From: a virus
Virus record (IMG/VR): IMGVR_UViG_3300030103_005831
Location: 16,465-42,424 of that record
Length of the DNA: 25,960 nt
Strand: one strand, 5' to 3'
The notes below the pieces were generated by a model. The model had not been told where the DNA came from. It saw only the letters and a list, made by a program, of their open reading frames with translations, and did no database searches. The position numbers were made by a program, and so were the translations under genes. Of the stretch, positions 2,843 through 9,480 are shown in pieces; position 1 is the first letter of the stretch; the number at the start of each line of letters is the position of its first letter.

Positions 2843-4201
2843 TTGAGTGAATTAGGAATTGAGAAACAATCTGAGTATCAGATTTCATCAGCTGTATTAT
2901 CTAACAGTGGTAGAAATAATGATATAAGTTTTGATATAAAAAATTTAATATCATCTTTTCAAATATTCGAACACATTGAAAAACCTTATTTGACTGCAGA
3001 GTTTAATATAGTTGATAATGTTAATCTTATTCAAGGATACGATTTTCAAGGTGGAGAAAAATTAACAATTGATATCGTTCAATCCGAAGAAAGAAATGAT
3101 GGAACGGGTATCGTTAAAGAATTTTTAATTGACAGAATAGAAGAAGTCACAAGAGCAGATGAAGTAATTGATTCTCTTGTATTTCATTGTATCGAATATC
3201 ATTCATTTAAATCATCACTGCAAAATATAAGTCGTTCTTATACCGGAACAACTGGAAGTATTATCACAAAAATTATGAGTGAATACTTAGATCGCGATCT
3301 TTTGACATTAGGAAATGAAGGAACGGGTAATATTAAAGTCATCATACCTAACTTAAATCCAATTGAAGCGGCATTATGGTTAAAAAATAGAAGTGTAAGC
3401 AATATAGGCATGCCTTACTACATTTTTTCAGTTTTAGGTACTAATAATCTTATAATGAAAGATCTAGGCACAATACTGTCAGAACAAGTAATGAATAAAG
3501 ATGTTCCATTTGTTTATGCGCCTAGTATGACGGCAAATACAATTCATCATCAAAAACATTATAATATTATTAATTTTAAAATATCAGAAACTGAAGACTT
3601 ACATTCTTTAATAAGTGAAGGCTTAGTTGGTAGTGAGTATTATTACTATAACACAATGACTGCTGCACCTTATAGAGTTAAATATGATGTTGAAGAAACT
3701 TTCAAAGATATTGCAGCCGCTGATTTGCTCGGTGGTGAAAATGATAGATTTGTTTATGCTCCAGATTATAAAATTAATGATGAAAAAATATCTACATATA
3801 ATGCAAGATCCATAACTCAAATAGCTTCTAGTGGAGCATATACAACTGCAACACGTAAGTTTAAAAGTTATAATGAAGAGAATGATGCAGCGAGTCATAA
3901 GAAAAAAATAATTGCAAAAGCTATGAAATCTTTCTTAGCAAAATCTCCTATTGAAATTACTGTAAGAGGCAGAGAATTTTTAACTGGTGACAATAACTAT
4001 ACGATCGGAAGAATTATACGAATACTTTTTATAGATACAGCAAGCACTAATGAAAGAGAAGCGCAACTGTTGTATGATACCAAAAAATCTGGAGACTATG
4101 TGATATGTGCAGCAAAACATGTATTTTCTGAAGAAGCGTATAATACAACTTTATTGTGCGGTAGATTAGGGACATTAGGAGAGGATATAAGCTTATCATG
4201 A
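2843..4201 (+). CDS. Baseplate hub protein, gp27-like
   Basis: A 452-residue protein with TTG as start, one base after the gp53 stop; no ATG or GTG in frame gives a sensible N-terminus. It begins MSELGIEKQSEYQISSAVLS and shows the pattern of hub proteins of the gp27/VgrG N-terminal kind: ISSFQIFEHIEKPYLTAEFN, FQGGEKLTIDI and an IDRIEEVTRADEVIDSLVFH strand set resembling the tube-like domain. Its gene overlaps gp5 by four bases (ATGA), and in T4 gp27 directly binds the gp5 OB domain, so context supports the call. T4 gp27 is about 391 residues. Sequence similarity between marine T4-like hubs and T4 gp27 is weak, so this rests on fold-like pattern and position; another hub-proximal structural role is possible. 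Confidence 0.6.
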   Translation: MSELGIEKQSEYQISSAVLSNSGRNNDISFDIKNLISSFQIFEHIEKPYLTAEFNIVDNVNLIQGYDFQGGEKLTIDIVQSEERNDGTGIVKEFLIDRIEEVTRADEVIDSLVFHCIEYHSFKSSLQNISRSYTGTTGSIITKIMSEYLDRDLLTLGNEGTGNIKVIIPNLNPIEAALWLKNRSVSNIGMPYYIFSVLGTNNLIMKDLGTILSEQVMNKDVPFVYAPSMTANTIHHQKHYNIINFKISETEDLHSLISEGLVGSEYYYYNTMTAAPYRVKYDVEETFKDIAAADLLGGENDRFVYAPDYKINDEKISTYNARSITQIASSGAYTTATRKFKSYNEENDAASHKKKIIAKAMKSFLAKSPIEITVRGREFLTGDNNYTIGRIIRILFIDTASTNEREAQLLYDTKKSGDYVICAAKHVFSEEAYNTTLLCGRLGTLGEDISLS

Positions 4202-5046
4202 GTCAAATGTTTTATGGTGATCAAAATAGATGGTTTGTTGGCCTCGTCGTTGATGTCGATGATCCACTTAAACTCGACCGTGTTAAAGTTAGAATACAAG
4301 GTGTGCATACACCAGACACTACATTAATACCTAACGCAGATCTACCATGGGCACAAGTTGCAATACCAGTAACTGAAGGAGGAAGCTCAGGTTTAGGTGC
4401 TAATAGTAGTTTAAAACCGAGAGCTCAGGTGTTTGGTTTCTTCTTAGATGGAAAAAATTCACAACTACCTTTAGTTATCGGATCAATACCTAAAATAGAA
4501 TCTTACGCAAATCAGGCTGGAGATGCAGACAACATTAAATATCCTACACTTGATAAAAAATCTGGCAGAGGTAATATTGATTTAGATCTGGATGGTAATG
4601 ATAATATAACAAAAGCATTTAACTTCTTTGTATCACAAGAAGGAGGAGATTATTCTTTTGAACAAGCTTGTGGAATAATAGGTAATTTTTGTGTTGAATC
4701 TGGACCAACATTAAATCCAAGAGCAGTTGCACCAACAGAAGGCTCAACCGGAATAGCACAATGGAATCCAGCAGAAGCAGCAGGAAATAGATTAGGTAAA
4801 CTCATTGATTACTCTGCAAGCTTAGGCCTAGATCATCTGACTTTAGGTGCACAATTATTATTTACTAAATATGAACTAGAAACATTTAGTTATTTAGGTG
4901 ATGGATTGTTGAGAAAAGCTAACACAGTAAAAGATGCAACAATAGCTTTTCAAGATGCATATGAAAGACCTAACAAAGCTGTGGCTCATACAGATAGAAG
5001 AATAAACTACGGAAAAGAAGTTTTCGATAAATTGGTGAACGTATAA
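4198..5046 (+). CDS. 5: gp5-type hub OB-fold with tail lysozyme domain
   Basis: 282 residues, two domains. Residues 1 to about 100 are the gp5/VgrG OB-fold: WFVGLVVDVDDPLKLDRVKV, RIQGVHTPDTT, LPWAQVAIP, then PRAQVFGFFLDGKNSQLPLV and IGSIPK. Residues about 135-282 match the phage tail lysozyme type (Phage_lysozyme2-like): FNFFVSQEGGDYSFEQACGI, IGNFCVESG (candidate catalytic Glu167), GSTGIAQWN, LGAQLLFTKYELE and AYERPNKA. It should cut peptidoglycan during tail penetration. T4 gp5 uses a different lysozyme (T4 lysozyme/GH24 type) and carries its beta-helical needle in the same chain; both differ here, and the needle is encoded at 7196-8551. The start overlaps the hub gene (ATGA) and the stop overlaps the next gene by one base. 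Confidence 0.85.
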   Translation: MSQMFYGDQNRWFVGLVVDVDDPLKLDRVKVRIQGVHTPDTTLIPNADLPWAQVAIPVTEGGSSGLGANSSLKPRAQVFGFFLDGKNSQLPLVIGSIPKIESYANQAGDADNIKYPTLDKKSGRGNIDLDLDGNDNITKAFNFFVSQEGGDYSFEQACGIIGNFCVESGPTLNPRAVAPTEGSTGIAQWNPAEAAGNRLGKLIDYSASLGLDHLTLGAQLLFTKYELETFSYLGDGLLRKANTVKDATIAFQDAYERPNKAVAHTDRRINYGKEVFDKLVNV

Positions 5047-7196
5047 TGGCAATATTAATAGCAACCGGAAGTTCAATACAACTACCTTTAGGTACAGTTC
5101 AAGTTCATAGCGTAAGAATGAGGCGTAAAATTGATCCTGAATATCGTAGGTTGTTTTTAAATAATTCCGGTCCTGAATATAGATACACAAATATTCCTAG
5201 TGTTTTATATAGTTTTGATAGTGCTACAAGTATATTAACTATCAGAAAAGATTATGATGAAGTAGAAATTAATTACACACCTCCGTTGAATACAGAAGCA
5301 TTAAAGAAAATAGTTCCAATAACGAAGGCAAACACTGCAGCGAAGAATACTAGATTTTTTGACACTAATAGAACTTATATACTAGAATCTCAACAACAAA
5401 ATAAAATTAGTAATGAAGGTACTGTAGTCGGCAATTTTAATGAAACCAATGGCGTTAAGTCGTTGACACCATTTGCTAAAGAAGGCGAATTAATCACTAA
5501 GAGAATTATGCCAGTAAAATTAACAGGTGCTGCAGGTGATGGTAGATTACTAGTAAGTACAACAAATGCAAGTGAGCTGACCAGCATATTTGGTGTTGCA
5601 CCAGCAGCAAACGGAACATTAAAGAAAATAGTGACTAGTGGAGCACCACAGTCATTACTAAAGCAAATGCAAAAAAACTTTGCAGGATTATCTCCTCAAA
5701 AAATAAGAACTTATGCATCAAACGTTTCTGCTAATCCTTCGCTTACAATAAATTCTCTTAAACCCGAAAATAACCCTTCAACCGTTTCAGTACAAACCGC
5801 ATCAAAAATTTACAAAGAAAAATTGAAACTTAAATTAAACAATGGTGGATTTAATTTAGATCCGTTTGGTGCTTTTTCTGGACTGGCTAGAAGTAAACAA
5901 AATTTAGCAGGTCAATTTATAGGAACACTTTTAAATAAAGTCGGCAGTGTGTTTGGTAGTATACTAAATGGTTTAAAGATTTTCGACAATCCATCACCTT
6001 CAATAACATCTGCGTTCGGTGGTAACGTAAAAGATTTAATAGAACAAGGCGGATCTCAAACAAATCTTTCAACTTATATGAGCAAAGGAAATACTGTTAA
6101 TGTAAGTGCACCGACAATATCGTATGTCTTACAAAATCAAAATGCATTTCAAGGATACGCAACTCCAGCATCATACGAATTTACATTTGTTAATTCAACT
6201 GAAGAACTAATAAGTGAATTTAGTTCATCACGTAGAGGTCCTAATAGCACAGAAGAAGATGCTATAGGTGGTTTATTTGTGCATGAAACATTTAAGTTTA
6301 CAGGTCCGCCAGAAAAAGCTAATGCAAGAGCGATGAATGAAGGTGTAAAAAAAGTTCAACTTAAAATACTCACAAAAGAAATACAAGAAACTAATACTGC
6401 GGCAGATGATAAAACACCAGCTGAAACTGCACTCGATAGAATATCAATTAGACCAAATGATTATGGACTAAACTCACATTATTTAATTTTAACTGATGGA
6501 AGCTTACAAAGAGGTAGACCTATTGATAAGACTCGTACACCAAGTGCATATCCTAGATTTAATAAAACAGGCCTTCAGCTTACATTTGTATCAGGTGGAA
6601 AAAAACCAAATGCAAAGATGTTTGAAACTTATGATAGATTTTTAAAAGCTTGGTTTGCGGTGTTTCCGGACTGTGGTGTTTATGCAACAAGTGAAGTAAG
6701 TAATGATGTACAAAATACTTTCGATGTAAGACAAACTGTAAAGTCAAAATTTAGATTTGTTTATCGATATGATGACTTATCAGAACTAGATGAGTTTCCA
6801 ACCAAAGTTGAAAGAGCCATCACAAGACCAACAAAAATAGCAACTACATCATCTACTATAAATAAACCTATACCGTTATCAGAAGCAAATCAAAATATAA
6901 ATGATTTACTTGAAAGCAATAGAATTAATAATGACGCTAATAGTTTAATGAAGAAAGCTGGAGGTGCTTTAGCTCTACTCAATGGTGAAAGTAGAAATGC
7001 AGCTGCAGCAAAATTTGGTGCAGAAAATTTACCGAAGAATGATGTTAAAGCACAATTTGATAAAGACTATAAAACATTTCAAGCGGGCATGAAGCAGAGA
7101 AATAAAGAAATCAATAATATTGTTAACAAATTAAATACTAATAATACAACTGTTAAAACATTTGGTAATGAATTAAATAAAAATAGGAGTAGATAG
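5046..7196 (+). CDS. Large hub-region structural protein with degenerate amidase-like domain
   Basis: 716 residues; the whole protein is not recognised. Residues about 1-75 form a beta-rich N-terminus (SSIQLPLGTVQVHSVRMRRK). Residues about 290-320 hold a Gly-rich hydrophobic helix (GQFIGTLLNKVGSVFGSILN). Residues about 375-575 follow the Amidase_2/PGRP layout of T7 lysozyme: GGLFVHETF with His413 at zinc ligand one, SHYLILTDGSLQRGRPID (His478 beside the usual catalytic Tyr position, which is Ser here), FNKTGLQLTFVSGG, and NTFDVRQTVKSKF corresponding to CPSFDL. The later zinc His and Cys positions appear as Thr548/Ser549 and Gln556, so the domain is probably inactive. The C-terminus is helical and Asn/Lys-rich. 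It sits between the two gp5 parts, suggesting a place at the tail tip. Overlaps on both sides (TAATG, TAGTG) imply coupled translation. Confidence 0.6.
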   Translation: MAILIATGSSIQLPLGTVQVHSVRMRRKIDPEYRRLFLNNSGPEYRYTNIPSVLYSFDSATSILTIRKDYDEVEINYTPPLNTEALKKIVPITKANTAAKNTRFFDTNRTYILESQQQNKISNEGTVVGNFNETNGVKSLTPFAKEGELITKRIMPVKLTGAAGDGRLLVSTTNASELTSIFGVAPAANGTLKKIVTSGAPQSLLKQMQKNFAGLSPQKIRTYASNVSANPSLTINSLKPENNPSTVSVQTASKIYKEKLKLKLNNGGFNLDPFGAFSGLARSKQNLAGQFIGTLLNKVGSVFGSILNGLKIFDNPSPSITSAFGGNVKDLIEQGGSQTNLSTYMSKGNTVNVSAPTISYVLQNQNAFQGYATPASYEFTFVNSTEELISEFSSSRRGPNSTEEDAIGGLFVHETFKFTGPPEKANARAMNEGVKKVQLKILTKEIQETNTAADDKTPAETALDRISIRPNDYGLNSHYLILTDGSLQRGRPIDKTRTPSAYPRFNKTGLQLTFVSGGKKPNAKMFETYDRFLKAWFAVFPDCGVYATSEVSNDVQNTFDVRQTVKSKFRFVYRYDDLSELDEFPTKVERAITRPTKIATTSSTINKPIPLSEANQNINDLLESNRINNDANSLMKKAGGALALLNGESRNAAAAKFGAENLPKNDVKAQFDKDYKTFQAGMKQRNKEINNIVNKLNTNNTTVKTFGNELNKNRSR

Positions 7197-8551
7197 TGGC
7201 TGACGTTGATCAAATAGATCCAAGCGAACTCGCATCGATAGCTAATCCTACAGATGGAAGATCAGATCCCGATAAAAGGTTTCCAAGACAAGACTACGTC
7301 GGTGTATCTTCTGTAAACAATATTGCGCGCGGTACAAGAGTTAAAAATGTTTACATCGGTGGAAGTGTGCCGGGCGTTGATTTGGAACTAAATGATGAGC
7401 CATCTACTCAGTATCCGGAAAATCAAGTAAAAGAAACATCATCAGGTCATGTAATTGAATATGATGACACTAATGGCCGTGAACGCGTAATGATAAGACA
7501 TAGAACTGGATCTGGCGTGGAGATGAGAGCTGATGGAAGTGTTATATTAAGTTCAACAAACAATACATTACGAATAGTTGCAGCAAACGAAAAAGTCATA
7601 GTTGAAGGCGATGGTGAAGTAGTATATAACGGCAACTTAAAAATGAGAGTTGCAGGTGATTTTGATTTAGAGGTTGGCGGAGACTTTAATGTAAATGTTA
7701 TTGGTGACAAAGAAGAGAATGTAAGAGGTTCAGTTTTAGAATCAATAACTAAAAATAAAACTACAACTATTATGGAAAATCGTGCGGAAACAGTATTGGG
7801 TGTAGATACTCTTACTGTATTAAGTGATAAAAATCAAATTATAAAAGGTAATTATGAAACAGATGTACAAGGTTTTATTGAGTTGGATGCTAATGGAAAA
7901 CTCACAATGACGAGTGAAAGTAAAATAATTACATCATCGCCCGATATAAACATTACTGCAAAAAGTTTAACTGCAGTAGGAAACACAGGTACAATAGGTG
8001 GCGATCAAATAACTTTTTACTCACAAAATATATTTGGCAAGTCGTCAACTTTTACAAATGGCGTAACTGCACCAACGTTTCATGGTGATTTACAAGGAAC
8101 TGCTGTAGGTGCGGAAAAAGCAGGGACGGCTGCAGTAGGACCGGCACATAGTGGAAGTGCATCGAATACTTCAACTGACACTGTTCAAACAAGTCAACCT
8201 ACATTATCAATAATAAACGCAGGCTTAGCAAATCCAGAATATGGTGTAAGAGAAGTTGATATAGATGCATTTCAAGATTTACAATACAGTGTTGATAGGA
8301 GTAGAAGTTACGGTGGAATCAGTAAAGTCGATTTGACTACTAAAACTGCAAGATCGAAATTACGTGATCCAAACAATATAGCTAATGAAACCTTTGTAGG
8401 TGAAATTATTTCAGATGGTACTGTTTCAAAAGATTTTGCAAACACCATACCGCCTAAGTTTGGTAAAGTAGTAAATGCAAGTGATAAAGCACAAAGAGGT
8501 ACCGAAGCTATTGGTCCTTCTAATCCAAAAGGTAAGGTATTTCAAGTATGA
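7196..8551 (+). CDS. Central spike needle, gp5 C-terminal-like
   Basis: 451 residues, GTG start overlapping the previous stop (TAGTG) with AGGAG at 7185-7189. SSGHVIEYDDTNGRERVMIR followed by HRTGSGVEMRADGSVILSS is the entry to the gp5C/VgrG beta-helix. Residues about 105-270 then alternate short strands with Gly/Asn turns (NLKMRVAGDFDLEVGGDFNV) in the roughly 8-residue rhythm of the trimeric needle. The C-terminal third is different: Ala/Gly/Ser-rich then polar, without a motif I recognise. T4 gp5 carries OB-fold, lysozyme and needle on one chain that is cleaved during maturation; here the needle is its own gene, about 2.1 kb from the OB/lysozyme gene. It probably trimerises and forms the membrane-piercing spike. 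Confidence 0.75.
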   Translation: MADVDQIDPSELASIANPTDGRSDPDKRFPRQDYVGVSSVNNIARGTRVKNVYIGGSVPGVDLELNDEPSTQYPENQVKETSSGHVIEYDDTNGRERVMIRHRTGSGVEMRADGSVILSSTNNTLRIVAANEKVIVEGDGEVVYNGNLKMRVAGDFDLEVGGDFNVNVIGDKEENVRGSVLESITKNKTTTIMENRAETVLGVDTLTVLSDKNQIIKGNYETDVQGFIELDANGKLTMTSESKIITSSPDINITAKSLTAVGNTGTIGGDQITFYSQNIFGKSSTFTNGVTAPTFHGDLQGTAVGAEKAGTAAVGPAHSGSASNTSTDTVQTSQPTLSIINAGLANPEYGVREVDIDAFQDLQYSVDRSRSYGGISKVDLTTKTARSKLRDPNNIANETFVGEIISDGTVSKDFANTIPPKFGKVVNASDKAQRGTEAIGPSNPKGKVFQV

Positions 8552-9480
8552 CGTTAAAAGTTGACATAGTTGTTGATGGTCAATATGATCCTACGTTTCA
8601 ACCTAATATAACTGGTAGAACTAGATTATCTCAAAATGTTACCATGTCTAAATTTTTAGGTGGCTTCGGCGACCCACAAAGTATAAATCATTTAAGCAAA
8701 GAAGACAAACTATTATTAGCTAAACAATATTATTTACACGCACAAGTATTGCAACTCATAAATTCGGCGCCAGGATTAAGAGGCGTAGCAGGATTTGAAA
8801 AATTTAGATTAGTTGTTTCAGAAGCATATTATAGACAGAGTGATGACGAAGATTTAGACGTTACCGATGGCATAAACTATTTGATGACTAACGGTAGAGC
8901 AGTGGTTTATGAACTTATTGGTGAAGATGGAAAGATAGCACTTGAGAAAACATTCGATTTAGCCGTGTATTTAAAAAACAATATAAATTATGATAAATTG
9001 ATTTTAAATTACGATACGTATAATCCAGATGGATCTATTCATGTCGATATCATTTTAATTATGCCTGAAATAATAGCACCTTGGAATGTTACTTATGAAA
9101 AGATAATAGAGACTCGTTTCAATAATGCTGTTCAATCTACAGGCGAATTAATGGAACTTGGCGAAGAAGAAGAAACAGCTGCTTCTACAGGTTCAGAACC
9201 ATTGGATGAATCTAAACCATTTGCAGTCTTTGGAACAGGCGCTAGTGGTTTTGGTACAGGTCAAAAAGGATATTTTTATCCTCTCTACACTGACAAAGAA
9301 AAAATTAGAGAAGCTTTTCATGTGCATACCTTTGTTGAATATCCAGAAATAACTTTTTACATGCCTGATTCATCGAAAAATCACGCTAAATCCGATTACA
9401 ACAGAAATCTTTACACCCTATATCCTTCAGCTGACGTGGCATCAACAAGAAGTTCAACTGCTGGCGCAGGAGAATATTGA
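8548..9480 (+). CDS. Conserved virion structural protein
   Basis: 310 residues; overlaps the needle gene by four bases (ATGA). No T4 counterpart is recognised. The N-terminal two thirds look like a compact alpha/beta domain (SKEDKLLLAKQYYLHAQVLQ, FEKFRLVVSEAYYR, ending DIILIMPEIIAPWNVTYEKI). An acidic Gly/Ser linker (GELMELGEEEETAASTGSEP) leads to a C-terminal module GYFYPLYTDKEKIREAFHVH then TFVEYPEITFYMPDSSKNHA. This FYPLY then H-HTFxEYPxxTFYMP...NHA module is familiar from structural proteins of marine T4-like phages, where its role is undefined. Position at the end of the hub operon, before the gp25 promoter, suggests a tail tip or baseplate component. Two His-rich patches could bind metal, which is inference. 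Confidence 0.55.
   Translation: MTLKVDIVVDGQYDPTFQPNITGRTRLSQNVTMSKFLGGFGDPQSINHLSKEDKLLLAKQYYLHAQVLQLINSAPGLRGVAGFEKFRLVVSEAYYRQSDDEDLDVTDGINYLMTNGRAVVYELIGEDGKIALEKTFDLAVYLKNNINYDKLILNYDTYNPDGSIHVDIILIMPEIIAPWNVTYEKIIETRFNNAVQSTGELMELGEEEETAASTGSEPLDESKPFAVFGTGASGFGTGQKGYFYPLYTDKEKIREAFHVHTFVEYPEITFYMPDSSKNHAKSDYNRNLYTLYPSADVASTRSSTAGAGEY

Follow-up and report, generated by a model that had tools for sequence, protein, structure and literature searches.

A probable pseudo-amidase domain in the tail hub of a marine T4-like phage, encoded beside an apparently intact hub lysozyme

Why would a phage tail hub keep an amidase domain that appears to have lost its catalytic site? Lysozymes and amidases of the hub are generally described as enzymes of entry. 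The question is raised by the window, a 25,960-nucleotide stretch of a 42.4-kb IMG/VR virus contig, which carries a T4-like baseplate operon in the order gp27-like tail protein, gp5 N-part, 716-aa protein, gp5 C-part, 310-aa protein, gp25-like protein and gp6. A preliminary description had proposed that the 716-aa protein contains an amidase-like domain at residues ~386–575 which has lost most of its zinc site and become a peptidoglycan-binding or purely structural tail-tip domain next to an apparently intact lysozyme. The open reading frame (5046–7196; this and all window features below lie on the + strand) and its motifs were found where they had been reported.

The tail protein upstream of gp5N (2843–4201) occupies the position of the gp27-like hub gene, matches phrog_350 (E 6.9e-44) and has relatives with the same gene order. 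The gp5 N-part (4198–5046) consists of a T4 gp5-type OB domain at residues ~10–100 (Gp5_OB E 1.3e-4; T4 gp5 OB in the PDB E 5e-12) and a Phage_lysozyme2 domain at residues 135–279 (PF18013). The gp5 C-part, the needle β-helix, is a separate gene (7196–8551) that matches positions 322–569 of phrog_430 (E 3.8e-34), with a Gp5_trimer_C match at E 1e-5 that lies below the cut-off. The OB domain and needle of the T4 gp5 hub-spike type are therefore both present on separate genes, with the split falling between lysozyme and needle and the 716-aa gene sitting in the gap. In some relatives the 310-aa protein (8548–9480) forms the end of a fused gp5C. It is 55% identical to residues 465–664 of the gp5C of locus L140, and in L140 and L176, among others, the equivalent of 7196–9480 is a single fused gene of 665–680 aa. 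These fusions suggest that spike genes split or fuse repeatedly.

The 716-aa protein itself consists of an N-terminal cassette (residues 1–85, 5046–5300; pLDDT ~85), a middle region that is largely helical in a low-confidence model (residues 96–374, 5331–6167), the amidase-like domain as modelled (residues 375–600, 6168–6845) and a C-terminal tail which is helical by DSSP on the model (residues 585–716, 6798–7193; dN/dS 0.25). The cassette, with homologues in L007, L016 and L021–L026, is exchanged between relatives, its identity being discordant with that of the rest of the protein. L021 and L023 are 23% identical in the first 85 residues and 92% elsewhere, while L007 and L022 are 93% identical in the first 85 residues and 69% elsewhere. 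The dN/dS of residues 1–95 is 0.64, and the first 85 residues are possibly a recognition or contact module.

Direct searches with the 716-aa protein gave no significant match in Pfam, PHROGs, PDB sequences or INPHARED. For Amidase_2 (PF01510) in particular, the window protein has no match and one relative reached E 0.21, below the Pfam cut-off. A scan of bacterial and archaeal genomes returned no relative of the protein, and its close relatives, at 61–100% identity, are in IMG/VR. A profile built from this family aligned with T7-type amidases over residues ~473–567 at E 3e-5 (hhalign). As a control, five other stretches of the protein gave E 0.1 or worse against the same amidases, on which basis a chance resemblance was rejected. 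Sub-threshold tblastn matches of the domain among 50,697 phage records were mostly annotated as amidases, lysozymes or endolysins.

Structure prediction returned the same fold. An AlphaFold2 model of residues 375–600, from a 65-sequence alignment that includes intact amidases, has a pLDDT of 91.8 and a pTM of 0.88, and a Foldseek search of the PDB with it found PGRPs, LysC, AmpD and T7 lysozyme at probability 1.00. The full-length model, from the degenerate family only, was poor (pLDDT 42.5); use was made solely of its first 80 residues, which are confident, and of the model as a Foldseek query uninfluenced by active relatives. Its top two matches were again a PGRP and T7 lysozyme, so that the fold cannot be put down simply to the presence of active sequences in the alignment. 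Profile, relatives and model agree that the region picked out in the preliminary description has a PGRP/N-acetylmuramoyl-L-alanine amidase fold.

Active versions were found at the same operon position. Scanning with the gp5 N-part gathered 80 loci. Wherever a locus extends far enough, the following gene encodes a protein of 490–820 aa, and more than 40 of these proteins are recognised by the family profile. Among the proteins directly after gp5N are intact H-Y-H-D amidases that match Amidase_2 at E 1e-7 to 1e-15 (L176 4e-14, L188 9e-15, L190 1.6e-12), and L176 matches T7 lysozyme at E 1e-11. L140 has lost its ligands yet still matches T7-type amidases directly at E 1e-4. The presence of intact amidases directly after the gp5 OB-lysozyme in homologous loci argues that an active amidase of the hub was the ancestor of the window protein.

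A tree of the domain, computed with the ligand columns removed, T7-type amidases as outgroup and the ambiguously aligned L165 left out, places the intact forms first, nearest the outgroup. The window clade of 16 rows (100/99) lies inside a 30-row clade (100/100) in which all members have lost the site. Tracing the intact or lost label over this tree gives four changes, at least three of them on well-supported branches. Several loci look like intermediates. L143 (1615–3480) and L186 (7972–9996) have His, His and Cys but Trp for Tyr, L146 (7801–9840) has only the first His left and L144 (7812–9860) has no ligand. Within the window clade the median dN/dS of the domain is 0.18, compared with 0.21 and 0.25 in neighbouring regions, indicating that purifying selection continues to act on the dead domain. 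Judged by its sequence, the domain appears dead as an enzyme, yet not neglected.

The loss extends across most of the active site. The preliminary description read the second His and the Cys as Thr548/Ser549 and Gln556, and the catalytic Tyr before HYLI as Ser, and profile alignment with T7-type amidases reproduced both readings. T7 H122 aligns with Thr548 (Thr548/Ser549, the H122/H123 position, 6687–6692; T/N/S/H and S/N/G/H/I across relatives), C130 with Gln556, the third zinc ligand position (6711–6713; Asp in intact hub amidases, Q/I/P/V here), and Y46 with Ser477 (6474–6476), which is an invariant Ser in the clade. T7 K128 aligns with Asp554 (6705–6707), so that the catalytic Tyr and Lys are both missing. 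Position 554 holds seven residue types in the clade and is the most variable active-site column, at the 98th percentile. Overall, the old active-site positions fall at the 75th–98th percentile of variability in the domain, with only Ser477 among them invariant.

The claim that the first zinc His is kept proved wrong or at least unsafe. His413 (6282–6284; T7 H17) is His in 13, Tyr in seven and Phe in one of 21 family members. As the sister clades have Gly, Ser or Asp there, it may be a chance or regained His; alternatively, His413 may have been retained and separately lost in the sister clades. His occurs at position 548 in 2 of 22 clade members, and with many members carrying His413 it follows that single members can hold one ligand. 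Where Amidase_2 has the set His, His and Cys/Asp, the window domain has His413, Thr548 and Gln556, variable in the clade, and the GAHA..GHN loop of active relatives is gone from the clade. The GRP-type loop was correctly described as kept (Gly-Arg-Pro 490–492, 6513–6521), with Arg491 and Pro492 unchanged throughout the clade and in 13 intact relatives. Also invariant in the clade are Ser477, His478, Asp484-Gly485 and most of the block 526–546. No rebuilt zinc site is apparent. Among the His and Cys residues of the domain only His478 and Cys543 are invariant, and a substitute site was rejected for want of a second conserved His.

Taken as a whole, the domain is probably a pseudo-amidase, a PGRP-fold domain whose ancestor was an active tail-hub zinc amidase. 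It would no longer bind zinc or cut peptidoglycan and would persist as a building block that the hub still requires. The earlier proposal, in which an enzyme domain of a tail-tip protein lost its catalysis next to an intact lysozyme, is thereby supported, given the active versions at the same gene position, the clade-wide loss of the metal site and the confirmed fold. Of the two outcomes named in advance as refuting it, a zinc site rebuilt from other residues was not seen among conserved positions, and a model lacking the PGRP-like fold was not obtained. Of the two roles it offered, the structural one fits better; binding of peptidoglycan at the old site fits less well because the old active-site positions are variable while the scaffold is invariant.

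Binding is nevertheless the strongest of the other explanations, although it appears unlikely. The domain could be a non-catalytic peptidoglycan-binding module like metazoan PGRP-SA or PGRP-I, its groove holding wall fragments and so anchoring or orienting the hub while the lysozyme cuts. This would suit the structural matches, the best of which are largely to PGRPs, several of them known non-catalytic binders, as well as the retention of His478, Gly485 and Arg-Pro 491–492 and the purifying selection on the domain. However, nearly all floor residues (Tyr, second His, Lys and Cys/Asp) are replaced, unlike in non-catalytic PGRPs, most floor positions are more variable than the domain at large, and the loop seen in active relatives is missing. 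A surface groove may exist for another ligand.

It is very improbable that the domain is still an enzyme with changed chemistry, either metal-free or acting through other residues. The strong conservation of the block around 477–546 is what such an enzyme might show, but there is no conserved substitute metal or nucleophile set near the old site, the old ligand positions are variable, and the single invariant Cys, Cys543, lies five positions before the second ligand, with one invariant His besides. Neutral decay of a functionless domain on its way out is least credible of all, since the lost catalytic residues and more than one change on the tree are set against a dN/dS of about 0.18, an open reading frame that is intact in relatives and a fold kept across a deep clade, and a pseudogene was rejected on the dN/dS value.

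If the pseudo-amidase does not cut, the wall would most likely be opened by the lysozyme of the gp5 N-part, encoded just upstream. This lysozyme appears intact, as had been noted, with PF18013 at E 1.9e-24 and both Glu167 (4696–4698) and the GIAQW motif present. We take Glu167 to be the catalytic Glu from its place in a conserved ES motif. It is invariant in 14 close relatives and lost in the amidase-intact clade, L196 and L269. The Glu and GIAQW are intact in the window clade and in nearly all amidase-lost loci. In a second group, whose amidases are intact, the motif has decayed and the Glu is replaced by Lys, Val, Ala, Ile, Thr or Ser, with a weakened lysozyme domain still recognised by Pfam. 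A mirror image of the window is found in L194, L195, L197–L199, L201 and most of L202–L280, where a PF18013 domain without the presumed catalytic Glu and GIAQW adjoins an intact hub amidase.

Across 113 distinct loci the Glu is present and the amidase lost in 44, the Glu lost and the amidase intact in 53, both are present in 15 and neither in one (L196). These are automatic calls from two scans seeded from opposite groups, the second with the lysozyme-lost group; L143, L144 and L146, with Trp at Y46 and some or no ligands, are absent from them, and L235 and L241 are counted as lysozyme-present on a Glu kept in an otherwise decayed motif (GLMGW or similar for GIAQW), their state being unsure. 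G[IVL]AQW occurs in 55 of 59 Glu-bearing loci and in 1 of 54 Glu-lacking loci. After thinning, L196 is the one row among 31 without the amidase site that also lacks the lysozyme Glu, and the one among 44 without the lysozyme Glu that also lacks the amidase site.

On an independent tree of the OB domain and gp27-like protein (85 rows), the lysozyme state changes four times and the amidase state twice. With so few changes per trait the locus counts are not independent, and no formal test, a sign test on independent pairs included, could reach significance. The reciprocal loss appears to be a strong pattern rather than a statistical proof. In relatives one of the two domains usually seems dead, and it is exceptional for neither to look able to cut. 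The sole locus to have lost both, L196 (752–3183), has Lys for the lysozyme Glu and no amidase ligands, and no other enzyme domain was found in its gp5C; its relative L191 keeps the lysozyme Glu. Conversely, L271, L272, L277 and L279 have the lysozyme Glu and the amidase ligands both intact and branch at the base of the lysozyme-lost group, making them candidates for the ancestral state.

The simplest reading is that both domains would be structural in the hub and either would be able to supply the cut. The pseudo-amidase protein would probably share the hub-spike complex with the needle and the OB-lysozyme part, gene order being what points to its presence in the virion. Extended to marine T4-like phages, this becomes a proposal that we consider evenly balanced: their hubs would carry an adjacent lysozyme and amidase, of which one is switched off in some lineages and the other elsewhere with both folds kept, the dead partner being essential for hub assembly and the loss of one enzyme fixing dependence on the other.

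Hub amidases are not new, as Vibrio phage VP-1 has one in a hub/spike protein. A search of the open-access literature found no account of a phage hub with a dead PGRP domain, or of such a domain and a hub lysozyme being lost in alternation. Folds here outlive their chemistry, with a large clade bearing an amidase fold minus its site and a sister clade bearing a lysozyme fold minus its presumed catalytic Glu. This suggests a second, structural job for the enzyme domains of tail hubs, with one active cutter usually being enough. It also means that annotation by fold alone will label dead domains as enzymes.

Among named phages, the nearest relative by gp6 is C48C1 (OQ984149), with a 42% identical gp6 and the same baseplate gene order; it differs in that its gp5 is short and lacks a lysozyme domain, and nothing in it corresponds to the 716-aa protein. 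The cultured VP-1 (MH363700, 130646–133696, here L286:30646–33696; Ackermannviridae) encodes a baseplate hub/spike protein in the order OB, needle, Amidase_2 and endosialidase chaperone. Its amidase (residues 418–538, E 2.6e-12) has apparently intact motifs and follows the needle in one polypeptide, in which no lysozyme domain was found.

The window domain shares its fold, its order of strands and helices and its DG and GRP motifs with T7 lysozyme (gp3.5) and the phage zinc amidases of PF01510, and direct relatives at its gene position score in Amidase_2. It differs from them in that its zinc ligands are lost or unconserved, it is without the catalytic Tyr or Lys, it has no Pfam amidase match and it lies inside a 716-aa hub protein. 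A PGRP fold without catalysis is common to the window domain and to metazoan PGRP-SA and PGRP-I, which have no amidase activity, and PGRPs are its top Foldseek matches. Non-catalytic PGRP domains are well known in animals; PGRP-SA and PGRP-I have lost mainly the Cys ligand and keep the groove, whereas the window domain has very little of the site left and is part of a viral tail.

T4 gp5, composed of OB domain, lysozyme and β-helix needle, is the closest parallel for the hub as a whole, as the window OB domain matches it and a needle part is present. It is made as a single chain, and cleavage follows Ser351 in the linker that joins lysozyme to needle (PMC3004832). The window has its gene break at the matching place, between those two domains, but its lysozyme belongs to another family (PF18013), and the pseudo-amidase gene separates the gene for OB-lysozyme from that for the needle.
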